From Uliginosibacterium sp. 31-16 (GTDB lineage Bacteria > Pseudomonadota > Gammaproteobacteria > Burkholderiales > Rhodocyclaceae), in NCBI RefSeq assembly GCF_030730865.1, contig NZ_JAVALZ010000005.1, forward strand, positions 62,001-126,000: a stretch of DNA of 64,000 nucleotides, read 5' to 3'. The notes beneath the pieces were generated by a model. The model searched no databases, was not told where the DNA came from, and saw nothing but the letters and a program-made list of their open reading frames with translations. Positions within the stretch are counted from its first letter, which is position 1. Every line of letters begins with the position of its first letter. The translations under genes and the position numbers were made by a program. Below, piece by piece: positions 16,117 through 54,630 of the stretch.

Positions 16117-17532
16117 TTACTCTTCGCCACGTCCGGCATCAATGCCCAGTTCCTGAATCTTGCGGGTAATCGTATTGCGACCAATGCCCAGCAACTGGGC
16201 TGCTTCGACACGACGTCCTCCCGTAGCCGCAAGTGCGCGCAGGATCAGGTTTTTCTCGAACTCCCTGCTCAGACGATCAAAAACCTCACCTGGAGCCGAG
16301 TGAATCAGACTGTCTGCTTCGGCGTTCAGCGCGCTCACCCAGTCTGTGCCCGCTACGGTTCCGCTGCTGGCAAGGGTTTCACGCATGTCTGCGGGCAGAT
16401 CGGCTTCGTCAACCGTCTGACCCGGGGCCATGACTGTCAGCCAGTGACAGATGTTCTCCAGCTGGCGCACGTTGCCAGGAAAATCAAAACTTTGCAGACG
16501 CCGCAGGGCCGTTTCAGAAAGACGTTTGGTTTCCACTCCAAGCTCTTGCGCGCTGTGCGCCAGGAAATGCTTGGCGAGGATGGGGACGTCTTCACGGCGC
16601 TCACGCAGTGGCGGCAGACGCAGACGGATGACGTTGAGACGGTGGAAAAGGTCTTCCCGGAACAATCCGTCGCGGACTCGCTGCTCAAGATGCTGATGGG
16701 TCGCCGCGATCACACGGACATTGGCCTTGACAGGGGAGTGACCGCCGACGCGATAGAAATTGCCGTCTGAGAGTACGCGCAGCAGACGTGTTTGCAGCTC
16801 CGAAGGCATGTCGCCGATTTCGTCGAGAAACAGGGTGCCGCCCTCTGCCTGTTCAAAGCGCCCGCGACGCTGCGCTGCTGCACCGGTGAAGGCGCCCCGT
16901 TCATGACCGAACAACTCGGATTCAAGCAGATCACGTGGAATCGCGGCAGTGTTGATGGCGACAAAGGGGCCGTCCTTGCGCGGGCTGTGGCGATGCAGGG
17001 CCTGTGCAACCAGTTCCTTGCCAGTCCCTGATTCGCCGTTGATCATGACGGTCGCGGATGATTGGGACAGGCGGCCGATGGCTCGGAATACTTCCTGCAT
17101 CGAGGCGGCTTGACCGAGGATTTCCGGCACGGCTGTGGCAGATTCGTTCGCACCACTTTGGTGCGAACTCTCTTTGAGCGCGCGCTGCAGCAAATCGAGA
17201 GCCTGGTCTACGTCAAACGGCTTGGGCAGGTATTCGAACGCCCCTCCCTGGAATGCGGCGACTGCGCTGTCCAGATCGGAATAAGCCGTCATGATGATGA
17301 CCGGCAAGCTCGGGTGTTTTTCCTTCACGCGCTGCAGCAAGACCAGACCTGAGTCGCCGGGCATGTGAATGTCCGAGATCAGGACCTTGGGAGGTGTGCC
17401 ATTGGCATCCAGCACCGCCAGGGCTTCGGAGGCAGCAGAGAAGCTACGGAAAGCTATGTTCTCCCGGGCTAGCGCTTTTTCCAGCACCCAGCGAATCGAG
17501 CGGTCATCATCAACAATCCAGACAGCATTCAT
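16117..17532 (-). CDS. ntrC: Nitrogen regulation response regulator NtrC (NR-I)
   Basis: The 471-residue sigma-54 activator has a receiver domain (1-120; phospho-acceptor Asp in [12 protein letters not shown], about 54), an AAA+ domain (about 140-370) with Walker A GESGTGKE and the sigma-54 contact motif GAFTGA, and a C-terminal Fis-type HTH ([20 protein letters not shown], about 440-460). It is co-transcribed after ntrB. Two NtrC-like sites and a -24/-12 promoter lie upstream of the nearby glnA gene. Confidence 0.98.
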
Positions 17533-17580: not shown

Positions 17581-18657
17581 TCACGATTGAGTGATCGGCA
17601 GGAGAATCGTGAAGCAGGTGCGGCCGGGTTCGCTATCCAGGTCAATGGTGCCCTGGTGCTGCTCAACAAAGCTCTGTGCGATTGACAGCCCCAGCCCCGT
17701 GCCGCCTTCCCGCCCCGAAACCAGAGGATAGAAGATCGTGTCACGGATGTCGGCAGGGATGCCCGGTCCGTTGTCGATTACTTGCAATTCCAGTGCCAGT
17801 TTGTGGCGGCGCTTGGCCAGGGTGACCTGACGGGCAGCTCGCGTGCGCAATACGACGATGCCTTGACCTTGCATGGCCTGCGCCGCATTGCGTGAAATAT
17901 TTAGCACCGCCTGGATCAGCTGTTCTCGGTCAGCAGTCAGGTGCGGCAGGCTGACGTCATAGTCACGGCGCACGGTCACGTCGGGAAACTCTGCCTGGAT
18001 GAGTCGCAACACGCGTTCCAGCACATCGTGAACATTCACGATGGAAGGGTGCATCATGCGATGCGAGTTGAGCAGGCGGTTCATCAGGTCTTGCAGGCGG
18101 TCAACCTCTGCGATGATGACCTGGGTGTATTCCCTCCACTGTGGATCGTCCAGCTCCCGCTCCAGAAGCTGTGCGGAGCCGCGGATACCGCCAAGTGGAT
18201 TCTTGATCTCGTGGGCGAGATTGCGCACCAGTTCGCGGTTGGCTTGCTGTTGTTCGGCCAAGCGCTCTTCGCGGGCCACTTTCAGCTGGGCATCCAGTGG
18301 GCGGAACTCCAGCAGCAGGCGTGCTGGAGGCAGGTCGACCGGGGAGGCGGTGCAGTCCAGATGCAGGGCTGGCAGCTTGGGGCGTTTGATGGTCAGGTTC
18401 TGGCCCGTGTGGCTCCAGTTGTTGGCCAGCGCATTGTCCAGTGCCGCCCACAGGCCGGGCAAATCACCCAGCAGGGCGGAGAGGTGGTGCCCCAGGCATT
18501 GTCGGCTGCTGGTCGAAAAAAGATGCTCTGCCGAAGGGTTGACGTAGCACACCGAGCGGTCGGCGCTGACCATCACGACGGCGGAGGAAAGCAGTTCAAG
18601 CCCCGCAGTGGAGGATGACAGGGTTTTTTCAGGTGAACTCAGGCTGGGGGGGCTCAT
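17581..18657 (-). CDS. ntrB: Nitrogen sensor histidine kinase/phosphatase NtrB (NR-II)
   Basis: The 358-residue cytosolic kinase has an N-terminal PAS domain (about 18-110), an H-box with NLAHEIKNPLGGIRG (His about 149) and a GHKL ATPase domain with DNGPGIP and GREGGTGLGLSIAQ. It controls NtrC phosphorylation in response to PII. There are 48 nt between its stop and ntrC. It has no membrane segments, as expected. Confidence 0.97.
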   Translation of the reverse strand: MSPPSLSSPEKTLSSSTAGLELLSSAVVMVSADRSVCYVNPSAEHLFSTSSRQCLGHHLSALLGDLPGLWAALDNALANNWSHTGQNLTIKRPKLPALHLDCTASPVDLPPARLLLEFRPLDAQLKVAREERLAEQQQANRELVRNLAHEIKNPLGGIRGSAQLLERELDDPQWREYTQVIIAEVDRLQDLMNRLLNSHRMMHPSIVNVHDVLERVLRLIQAEFPDVTVRRDYDVSLPHLTADREQLIQAVLNISRNAAQAMQGQGIVVLRTRAARQVTLAKRRHKLALELQVIDNGPGIPADIRDTIFYPLVSGREGGTGLGLSIAQSFVEQHQGTIDLDSEPGRTCFTILLPITQS

Positions 18658-18699: not shown

Positions 18700-19173
18700 C
18701 TATTTGAGCTTGGCTATTTCCTTGTTCAGCGCGTCAATGTTGCGTTCGTGCAACGCAACTTTGTCCTTGTAGGGCTGAACGCGGTCGATGAACTTCTGGT
18801 AATTCTTCTCGTCGCCAAGGCGGGTGGCCTCCTGCTCGGCAAGTTCTTTTTTAGCTGCGGCAAGGGCCTTCGTTTCGGTTGCCAGCTCGGTTTCGAGGAT
18901 CTTGCGCCGATCATTGTCGCGACTTTTTTGCGTGTCGCCATCAACCTTTGGGAAAGAGGCCGGAGTTGGTGTGGCAGAGGCTTTTTTCTGCGGGGCTGCC
19001 GTGCTGACGGGCTGATCCTTGGTCATCAGAGCGCAGTTTTTCTGGCCGGCTTCAGGCTTGCCGTTGGTGTAGGTGGTGTGGCCACTGTCATCCATGCACT
19101 TGTATATATCAGCCTGAGCGGTTGAGGCCAGCAGGCTGGTGGCGATGACGGCAAGGAGGTGAGTCCGGTTCAT
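18700..19173 (-). CDS. Exported DUF4124-domain protein
   Basis: The 157-residue protein starts at ATG 19173 (MNRTHLLAVIATSLLASTAQA), a clear signal peptide. It is followed by a DUF4124 segment (DIYKCMDDSGHTTYTN, about residues 22-50) and a long charged helix rich in Lys, Glu and Ala (about 90-157). The role is unknown. It lies between glnA and ntrB in the same direction, but a strong terminator separates it from glnA. Confidence 0.8.
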   Translation of the reverse strand: MNRTHLLAVIATSLLASTAQADIYKCMDDSGHTTYTNGKPEAGQKNCALMTKDQPVSTAAPQKKASATPTPASFPKVDGDTQKSRDNDRRKILETELATETKALAAAKKELAEQEATRLGDEKNYQKFIDRVQPYKDKVALHERNIDALNKEIAKLK

Positions 19174-19274: not shown

Positions 19275-19308
19275 ACAAAAAAAGGACGGGCAAGCCCGTC
19301 CTTTTTCA
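19275..19308. terminator. Terminator downstream of glnA
   Basis: AAAAGGACGGG-CAAG-CCCGTCCTTTT (19279-19305) is a perfect stem with T-runs readable on both strands. On the minus strand it ends glnA transcription before the DUF4124 gene. Confidence 0.93.
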
Positions 19309-19341: not shown

Positions 19342-20760
19342 TTACAGCGAGTAGTACATGTCGAATTCGACCGGGTGCGTGGTCATGCGGGTGCGGTTCA
19401 CTTCGCCCATCTTCAGTTCGATGTAAGCGTCAATGAATTCGTTGCTGAACACACCGCCACGGGTCAGGAACTCGCGATCCTTGTCCAGAGCGGCCAGCGC
19501 TTCTTCCAGCGAAGCACACACGGTCGGGATCAGCGCGTCTTCTTCCGGCGGCAGGTCGTACAGGTTCTTGTCGGCCGGCTCGCCCGGGTGAATCTTGTTC
19601 TGCACACCGTCCAGACCGGCCATCATCAGAGCGGAGAAGCACAGGTACGGGTTGGCCAGCGGATCCGGGAAGCGCGTCTCGATACGGCGAGCCTTGTCAG
19701 ACTGCACGTGCGGGATGCGGATCGAAGCGGAACGGTTGCGAGCCGAGTAGGCCAGCTTGACCGGCGCTTCGTAGTGCGGAACCAGACGCTTGTAGGAGTT
19801 GGTGCCCGGGTTGGTGATGGCGTTCAGTGCCTTGGCGTGCTTGATGATGCCGCCGATGTAGTACAGGGCGAACTCGGACATGCCGGCGTAGCCGTTGCCG
19901 GCGAACAGGTTCTTGCCGTCTTTCCAGATCGACTGGTGCACGTGCATGCCGGAACCGTTGTCGCCAACGATGGGCTTGGGCATGAAGGTGGCGGTCTTGC
20001 CGTACTGGTGAGCAACGTTGTGCACCACGTACTTGAGCAATTGGGTCCAGTCGGCGCGTTGCACCAGGGTGCTGAACTTGGTGCCGATTTCGTTCTGGCC
20101 GGCGGTGGCCACTTCGTGGTGGAACACTTCAACCGGGATGCCCAGTTCTTCGAGGATCAGCACCATCGAGGCGCGGATATCCTGGTGGCTGTCGACCGGG
20201 GGAACCGGGAAGTAGCCGCCCTTGACGGTGGGACGGTGGCCGATGTTGCTGCCGTCCTGACCTTCTGCGGAGGCCCATGCGGCTTCGTCGGAGTTGATCT
20301 TGACGAAGCAGCCGGACATGTCGCTGTGCCAGCTGATGCCGTCAAAAATGAAGAATTCGGGTTCCGGGCCGAAGAAGGCAGTGTCGCCCAGGCCGGAGGA
20401 CTTCAGATAGGCTTCAGCGCGCTTGGCGATGGAGCGCGGGTCGCGGTCGTAGCCTTTGCCATCGGACGGCTCGATGACGTCACAGGTCATGATGACCGTG
20501 GTTTCGTCAAAGAAGGGGTCGATGTTGGCGGTGGAGGCGTCCGGCGACAACAGCATGTCGGAGGCTTGAATGCCTTTCCAGCCTGCGATGGAGGAGCCGT
20601 CGAAGGCGTGGCCGTGGTCGAACCACTCTTCGTCCACAACGTGGGACGGCACGGTCACGTGCTGTTCTTTGCCGCGGGTGTCGGTGAAGCGCAGATCAAC
20701 GAACTTGGCTTCGCTTTCCTTGATCAGCTTGATAACGTCCAGAGGGGTCTTCGTGCTCAC
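19342..20760 (-). CDS. glnA: Glutamine synthetase, type I
   Basis: The 472-residue subunit of the dodecamer makes glutamine from glutamate, ammonia and ATP. It has [10 protein letters not shown] (ATP-binding signature), the metal ligands in [10 protein letters not shown], and the adenylylation site Tyr in NLYDLPPEE (about 401), so GlnE control is expected. The start is at 20760. Upstream are a sigma-54 -24/-12 promoter and paired NtrC-like sites, and ntrBC lies downstream, so this is a nitrogen-stress controlled gene. Confidence 0.98.
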
Positions 20761-20866
20761 TTCAGCTCCTAACTAATGAAGAATTGATCGGTTGCGGTAC
20801 CTGTCCGCCATCAGCTGCCAGTACAAAGGGCGTACTCTCAGGCCGTGCGTTACTCTTCGAGATAAA

Positions 20867-20881
20867 GCATGGACTATGCCA
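20867..20881 (-). promoter_or_regulatory. Sigma-54 (-24/-12) promoter of glnA
   Basis: Read on the minus strand the sequence is TGGCATAGTCCATGC. It matches TGGCAC-N5-TTGC at 8 of 10 consensus positions and keeps the invariant GG-N10-GC. Transcription would start near 20855, giving a leader of about 95 nt before glnA. Confidence 0.72.
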
Positions 20882-20988
20882 GTCGTGGCCGCAGAATGCC
20901 CGTATCCCGATACAGACCGGCACATTGCCGGCTCACAGGAAGTCGCGATTGTGCCACAAGGCCATTGCTGCGCGTGGCTTTGCGTAAA

Positions 20989-21036
20989 CGCCCTGAATTG
21001 GTGCGTATTGCGGAAATTCTGCACCAATTCAGGGCG
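20989..21036 (-). promoter_or_regulatory. Paired NtrC-like enhancer sites upstream of glnA
   Basis: A perfect 16-bp inverted repeat, CGCCCTGAATTGGTGC (20989-21004) and GCACCAATTCAGGGCG (21021-21036), has a 16-nt spacer. Each arm resembles the NtrC consensus GCACC-N5-GGTGC: GCCCTGAATTGGTGC and its mirror. Their centres are 31 bp apart, and lie about 140 and 170 bp upstream of the predicted sigma-54 start. Confidence 0.7.
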
Positions 21037-21102
21037 TTGAGGAAAATGACTTGCGCGTCGCATACTTGTCATCTGTCTGACTTGCTACGGATAAAAATAA
21101 TC

Positions 21103-21555
21103 ATGGGAACCCTGACCGATATCCTGCGCCTTGCCAAGGAGCGCGCCGAAAAAATGGGCCTGCCTTACGAAGGGGCTCTGACCCCGCAGGAGGCGCATAC
21201 CGTTTTGCAGCTTGCACCGGGCTCGCGCATTGTTGATGTGCGCACGCGCGCTGAACTGGACTGGGTGGGGCGTATTCCTGGGGCCATTGAAATCGAATGG
21301 AACAGCTACCCCGGCGGCGTGCCGAACCCGCATTTCGTCACGCATCTGAAAAAGCAGGCAGATCCCGAGTCGCTGCTGTTGTTCATCTGTCGCAGCGGCG
21401 CGCGCTCGCACAATGCGGCGATCGCCGCGACCGAAGCCGGCATGCCCGATTGCTACAATGTTCTTGAAGGTTTTGAGGGTGACAAGGACGCCAATGGTCA
21501 GCGTGGCAGGGTTGGTGGCTGGCGCCATGCCGGCCTGCCATGGCAACAAAGCTAG
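21103..21555 (+). CDS. Rhodanese-like domain protein
   Basis: The 150-residue single-domain protein has a rhodanese fold (about 25-145) with active-site loop ICRSGARSHN (Cys about 95). The CH2 region reads RIVDVRTRAELDWVGRIPGA. The C-terminus with NVLEGFEGD and GWRHAGLPW is typical of a betaproteobacterial rhodanese family. It probably transfers sulfur or acts on thiols in the cytoplasm. It is divergent from glnA and reads toward nadA. Confidence 0.88.
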   Translation: MGTLTDILRLAKERAEKMGLPYEGALTPQEAHTVLQLAPGSRIVDVRTRAELDWVGRIPGAIEIEWNSYPGGVPNPHFVTHLKKQADPESLLLFICRSGARSHNAAIAATEAGMPDCYNVLEGFEGDKDANGQRGRVGGWRHAGLPWQQS

Positions 21556-54234: not shown

Positions 54235-54630
54235 GAATATGTTGCGGTAAATCCATTATCGGCAGGCGCTGCCGGCAATGACATTTGCACTTTGGCATGC
54301 TGACCATGCCGAAACGTAATGGATCGGCGTCTGCCGGGTTTGCAAACCGGGCTTGACAGGGCTCCACCCGTCACCGAAGATGGAAATGTGCGTGGCAGGG
54401 TTCTGCCACGCATCCCTGAAGTTGAAAGGGGAGTAGCTTCGGCCACTGCAAGGTGGCTGTGATACGGTCGTCAATCCGGGCGCGAGCCCCGGTCGTATCG
54501 GCGCGTGACGGTGCAAGCGAGACCTTTGCCGGAAAGGCAAAGGCACGTCGACCAAGCGGCCTTTGCCTTTCCGGTAATGGCCGCTTTGCATTGGGCAATG
54601 CGGTGTGGAACACACGACCGGAGCGCCGCG
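54235..54630. other. Structured intergenic region between TerC-Usp and a LysR gene
   Basis: The 396 bases contain no supported gene. Notable structures are GCGTGGCAG-GGTT-CTGCCACGC (54390-54411), a short palindrome GGTTTGCAAACC near 54340, and the competing stem set at 54523-54574 listed separately. Confidence 0.6.
54523..54574 (+). promoter_or_regulatory. Three-arm alternative hairpin ahead of the LysR gene
   Basis: CCGGAAAGGCAAAGG (54529-54543) and CCTTTGCCTTTCCGG (54560-54574) form a perfect 15-bp stem. The inner GGCAAAGG (54536-54543) can instead pair with CCTTTGCC at 54523-54530. The two folds exclude each other, as in attenuators or riboswitch-like leaders. There is no T-run, and 56 nt separate it from the start codon at 54631. 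Confidence 0.55.

Follow-up and report, generated by a model that had tools for sequence, protein, structure and literature searches.

A probable nitrogen-regulated, tandem-promoter region upstream of glnA in Uliginosibacterium sp. 31-16, with mirror-image NtrC-like sites

We identified a region upstream of glnA in Uliginosibacterium sp. 31-16 that, judging by its sequence, is very probably a nitrogen-regulated glnA control region, with putative tandem promoters of the enteric and betaproteobacterial type. The region lies in a 64-kb stretch of contig NZ_JAVALZ010000005.1 (the whole stretch analysed, hereafter the window), and all coordinates are positions within it. The elements themselves, their conservation and spacing, and the genes encoding NtrB, NtrC, and RpoN are observed here. 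The features that we discuss are the following.

16117 to 17532, minus strand: ntrC (NR(I)), NCBIfam TIGR01818, 691 bits against a cut-off of 558.6
17581 to 18657, minus strand: ntrB (NR(II)), NCBIfam NF008293, 355.9 bits against a cut-off of 240
about 18700 to 19173, counted from the likely ATG: DUF4124 gene between glnA and ntrB
19342 to 20760, minus strand: glnA, type I glutamine synthetase, NCBIfam TIGR00653, 659.9 bits against a cut-off of 429.15
20866 to 20881, minus strand: sigma-54 -24/-12 element TGGCATAGTCCATGCT of glnA promoter P2, GG-N10-GC, with an expected start near 20855
20948 to 20959, minus strand: conserved TTGTGGCACAAT, which is probably the extended -10 of glnA promoter P1 (sigma-70)
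20990 to 21004: glnA-proximal NtrC-like site, reading GCACCAATTCAGGGC on the minus strand, 9/12 consensus positions
21021 to 21035: glnA-distal NtrC-like site, reading GCCCTGAATTGGTGC on the minus strand, 9/12 consensus positions
20987 to 21038: 18-bp perfect inverted repeat holding both NtrC-like sites, with arms at 20987-21004 and 21021-21038 and a 16-base spacer
21037 to 21066, plus strand: weak sigma-70-like promoter TTGAGG-N18-CATACT, possibly of the rhodanese gene, found in the sequence by eye
21103 to 21555, plus strand: divergent gene for a rhodanese-like domain protein, Pfam PF00581, 42.4 bits against a cut-off of 22.2

The glnA gene reads leftward from a GTG start at 20760, where the sequence is TTAGGAGCTGAAGTG. 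The NtrB and NtrC matches are equivalog-level and lie above the curated cut-offs; NtrC has receiver, sigma-54 interaction, and Fis-type HTH domains (Pfam), with GAFTGA visible in the alignment, and RpoN is encoded in the genome. The original prediction placed ntrBC just beyond glnA, which describes the neighbourhood correctly, but a single operon, with ntrBC directly downstream on one transcript, is not what we found. A GC-rich hairpin (19279-19306) lies just 3' of glnA and is followed by T's on the glnA strand, and the DUF4124 gene also intervenes. The hairpin is likely a terminator between glnA and the DUF4124-ntrB-ntrC genes, although read-through is possible. The ntrBC genes may need either a promoter of their own or such read-through.

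Both NtrC-like 15-mers that had been predicted are present, and their centres, at 20997 and 21028, are 31 bp apart as claimed. Each contains one perfect half-site of the consensus GCACCA-N3-TGGTGC (12 fixed positions), a consensus that, like the weights of our sigma-54 score, comes from the literature. The half-sites TGGTGC and GCACCA are ones that we take to be of NtrC type. The accompanying remark that the sequence differs from the enteric site was half right, given that the inner half-sites are exactly the TGGTGC and GCACCA of this consensus. The predicted -24/-12 element with GG-N10-GC upstream of glnA is likewise present at 20866-20881 and conserved in relatives, lining up in the five genus regions that were aligned (of seven available); its -12 part reads ATGC rather than TTGC. 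Motif scoring, which had been proposed as a check, favoured the sigma-54 element, with 0.89 of the maximum versus a mean best score of 0.78 in shuffles, but left the NtrC-like sites weak when taken singly (9/12 each). The summed score of the pair, 18, is among the weakest that we recorded, with 96 of 103 pairs scoring at least 19.

Single motifs carry little weight in this genome. Two perfect GCACCA-N3-TGGTGC sites occur in it, one in a HAD-type coding frame (recognized by eye) and one in ntrC, and because both sit in coding frames, single-site matches prove little; we therefore took pairs and conservation as the evidence. Nor is the inner half-site pair diagnostic by itself, since TGGTGC-N16-GCACCA has one further copy in the genome (L067) and, with up to two mismatches, 382 matches versus 268 for the reversed control. 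Matches to the looser sigma-54 consensus TGGCAC-N5-TTGCW (up to two mismatches) number 42 in the window versus a shuffle mean of 47, which is no enrichment, and because this loose consensus is no commoner in the window than in shuffles, the sigma-54 motif alone proves nothing. The narrower pattern TGGCAYN5WTGCT, which was picked after seeing the site, occurs 17 times in the 3.9-Mb genome versus three times for its reversed control. As a separate observation, the perfect NtrC dyad of ntrC lies at 17150-17164, and a perfect sigma-54 consensus lies inside ntrB at 17783-17798 on the minus strand; the two are probably coding coincidences.

The comparison with related bacteria was drawn from three samples: glnA upstream regions from seven of the eight genus genomes (this one included), 27 further loci from a search of the family (GlnA matches in 115 of 121 genomes, with loci restricted to the top 30), and 80 loci on named public contigs, which were the top 80 of 589. 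The eighth genus genome (G006) yielded no GlnA match at the cut-off and no glnA upstream region, and neither TTGTGGCACAAT nor the start of GlnA was found at its best DNA match (L177). One locus too short at a contig edge (L160) was dropped from all upstream counts, and L094 also from the 112-region count of TTGTGGCACAAT. L094, a Candidatus Dactylopiibacterium metagenome assembly, has the closest GlnA among the best 80 of the 589 named public contigs (93%), and its glnA upstream region matches that of genus genome G007. A de-duplicated set of 106 regions omits seven near-duplicates (L094, L096, L109, L116, L159, L161, and L169). The thresholds (8 and 9 of 12 for NtrC-like sites and 0.85 for sigma-54) and the 31-bp search span were chosen after seeing the first scores.

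Across the 113 regions before de-duplication, the best sigma-54 score averaged 0.92 versus 0.76 in dinucleotide shuffles, and NtrC-like sites of at least 9/12 averaged 2.6 versus 0.4. After de-duplication, a sigma-54 score of at least 0.85 was reached in 95/106 regions and an NtrC-like pair 28-33 bp apart occurred in 88/106, the means of 20 mononucleotide shuffles being 1.1 and 0.9 regions, respectively. Pair and sigma-54 element stand together in 84/106 regions against a shuffle mean of 0.05, and it is this conservation that backs the predicted combination of an NtrC pair and a sigma-54 promoter at glnA. In 58 of the 88 regions the two sites of the pair are spaced 30 or 31 bp apart. The 22 of the 106 that do not have both pair and sigma-54 element at the thresholds used comprise seven with neither, four with the pair only, and 11 with the sigma-54 element only. 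All seven readable genus regions carry a pair 28-33 bp apart together with a sigma-54 element scoring at least 0.89, the weaker member of the pair reaching only 8/12 in three of them. The layout of pair plus sigma-54 element thus holds widely at glnA in related bacteria.

We also identified a conserved element, TTGTGGCACAAT, that the original prediction had overlooked and that lies between the NtrC pair and the sigma-54 element. Of 112 glnA upstream regions, 28 carry it exactly and a further 27 with one mismatch (28/106 and 25/106 after de-duplication), the best match in one shuffle of each region being 10/12, and TTGTGGCA(C/G)AAT is present in all seven readable genus regions. The start of the element is 38 bp from the centre of the proximal NtrC-like site here and 35-41 bp from it in 40 of the 52 de-duplicated regions where the element accompanies an NtrC pair. 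Measured to the sigma-54 element, the distance is 78 bp here and 78-85 bp in 7/7 genus regions, as against 32-36 bp in 37 of the 50 regions where TTGTGGCACAAT and a sigma-54 element occur together. The portion TGTGG-CACAAT reads as an extended -10, and because there is no good -35 and a simple sigma-70 scan of the region found nothing, promoter P1 is a name that we infer. TTGTGGCACAAT is, on its sequence, probably the extended -10 of a sigma-70 promoter, which would make a tandem promoter like the enteric glnAp1/glnAp2. Moreover, the distance between the NtrC pair and TTGTGGCACAAT is largely fixed, an indication that regulation of the upstream promoter by NtrC may be conserved as well.

On the divergent side, AGTAT, the complement of the -10 part of the putative promoter at 21037-21066, is invariant in the five genus regions aligned, and the sigma-70 scan did not pick this promoter up at its threshold. 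NtrC binding could also affect the rhodanese gene, since its possible promoter abuts the distal NtrC site.

By analogy with known systems, we propose that glnA would be read from the sigma-70 promoter P1, with TTGTGGCACAAT as its extended -10, under nitrogen excess. Under nitrogen limitation, NtrB would phosphorylate NtrC, two NtrC dimers would bind the site pair three helical turns apart and oligomerise, and NtrC would contact, by looping, the RNA polymerase-sigma-54 bound at the -24/-12 element and open P2 using ATP. NtrC bound beside P1 probably represses it. We infer binding, activation, looping, and the activity and repression of P1 from the known system, in which the E. coli tandem promoters glnAp1 and glnAp2 are reported to include two high-affinity NtrC enhancer sites and repression of glnAp1 by NtrC (PMC3870243). 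In Burkholderia cenocepacia, glnA is reported to be down in an ntrC mutant (PMC5491218).

The sites might instead bind another Fis-type sigma-54 activator, for instance NtrX or NifA, two families of the same class that this NtrC protein also matches, at lower scores. We regard such a substitution as very improbable, given that the TGGTGC/GCACCA half-sites are of NtrC type, that glnA and ntrBC are neighbours, and that the pair at glnA is conserved across genera. A second candidate target in the same genome bears on the specificity of NtrC. A Gcw_chp gene, a P-II gene, and an AmtB-like frame (identified by eye) stand in a row at locus L092, and upstream of the Gcw_chp gene (L092 476-615) are two overlapping NtrC-like sites, each 11/12 and 13 bp from the other, as well as TGGCACGAAACCGGCT, a -24/-12-like element of sigma-54 character that overlaps the start of the first listed ORF. 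With these two sites and TGGCACGAAACCGGCT present, classic NtrC specificity is plausible at the Gcw_chp/P-II locus. At the second P-II gene (L091), the 300 bases scanned (1200-1500) held no NtrC site of at least 9 and no sigma-54 score above 0.85, and a third P-II match occurs in the genome at L093.

With NtrC as the preferred regulator of the glnA pair, what sets this genome apart is the mirror symmetry of the two sites. The inverted repeat had been described as perfect and 16 bp long; it is perfect, and its arms are 18 bp, two more than claimed. The window holds seven perfect inverted repeats of at least 12 bp with spacers of 3-40 bases, and this one is the longest of them. In eight 64-kb sequences generated from a first-order Markov model, by contrast, a single repeat reached 12 bp and none exceeded that length. 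The second longest repeat of the window, at 54529-54574, has 16-bp arms and a 14-base spacer. A dispersed repeat or REP-like element was ruled out as the source of the arms, because the 16-mer of the arms has no copy in the genome, with zero or one mismatch, beyond the two local ones. No repeat this long was found in the 112 other glnA upstream regions, so perfect mirror symmetry is not part of a conserved design; the next longest among the 113 is a 15-bp repeat in Thauera butanivorans (L114), where both sites are perfect self-symmetric dyads. We found no sign of a function for the symmetry, which is unusual, seen in this genome only, unnecessary for the mechanism, and could have arisen by chance or by homogenisation through template switching.

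We hypothesize, tentatively and with the balance of our judgement against it, that a template switch (quasipalindrome) event copied one arm onto the other as a neutral or slightly harmful accident, the NtrC sites themselves being functional. Such an origin concerns the arms only and is compatible with NtrC/sigma-54 control of glnA. An 18-bp run has a probability of 1.4e-5 per pair under a motif-constrained, column-independent model built from 92 other pairs (L002 and L094 left out, other near-duplicates kept), and the perfect arms are the longest among the 113 glnA upstream regions. Compared with G005, the nearest genome (72% DNA identity), the distal arm differs at four bases within a span of five, and the aligned distal site scores 12/12 in G005 versus 9/12 here, which would fit the proximal arm having served as template for the distal one. 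Homogenisation of arms by template switching at inverted repeats is described in yeast (PMC8604942). This comparison relies on G005, however, as no other relative could be aligned across almost all of the region, and the distal site is weak in two other genus members too (8 in L005 and 9 in L007). The outer CGTT of the proximal arm, missing in G005, would need copying in the opposite direction. Furthermore, one of 8464 cross-pairings of real sites reached at least 19 of 21 complementary positions, so that over about 100 loci a chance origin of the symmetry is of the order of 1%, for a locus that was picked for its symmetry. Since the symmetry itself drew attention to the locus, chance may still account for it. 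If template switching does act between dyad-like sites, which we think possible though doubtful, the paired sites of a regulator would seed their own homogenisation, and enhancer pairs would change in part through concerted jumps of several bases, which here would have left the distal site weaker. Mirror symmetry of such an origin would be a modest case of joint evolution of binding sites.

The exact arms also raised the question of RNA folding, as the original prediction had remarked that a transcript would form a strong stem. The predicted stem is indeed strong (-32.7 and -36.9 kcal/mol on the two strands, z near -7), and one could suppose that the repeat is mainly an RNA element, such as a terminator, attenuator, or processing stem, with its NtrC likeness secondary. 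The repeat, however, sits upstream of either predicted glnA promoter and likewise of the promoter likely to serve the rhodanese gene. Transcription of it is not expected other than by read-through, and because no predicted promoter transcribes the repeat, the remark has little force. A terminator scan found no T-run after the 18-bp stem and no terminator, no Rfam family matched the stem at the gathering threshold, and the long perfect repeat is unconserved (0/112 other regions) whereas the NtrC pair is conserved. We therefore rejected an RNA function of the stem, and a mainly RNA role for the repeat seems to us highly unlikely.

As a pair of NtrC sites upstream of a sigma-54 promoter, the region resembles the enteric glnAp1/glnAp2 of E. 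coli and Salmonella, where the NtrC pair also has a three-turn spacing. Unlike those of enteric glnA, the NtrC sites here are weaker matches and exact mirror copies, and unlike in enteric glnALG, ntrBC are set off from glnA by a terminator-like hairpin and the DUF4124 gene. A betaproteobacterial glnA with two upstream promoters reportedly exists, going by the title of a paper, and to that extent the region is like it. Enteric glnA is reported to have a sigma-70-type promoter upstream, near its NtrC sites (PMC3870243), of which P1 would be the putative counterpart here. Measured from the expected start, the NtrC-like sites of this genome are about 142 and 173 bp away, compared with about 90 and 140 bp upstream of the start in enteric glnA, where at least 70 bp are reported to be needed (PMC7408454). 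The spacing of the pair and the sigma-54 element are shared with the set of 106 related glnA upstream regions, as is TTGTGGCACAAT, within one mismatch in 52 pair-bearing regions; unlike in those relatives, 18-bp perfect mirror arms occur only here. More generally, this is an ordinary, well-conserved nitrogen-control region whose novelty is confined to the site symmetry of this genome, and it adds one more well-supported instance of a textbook regulatory system.
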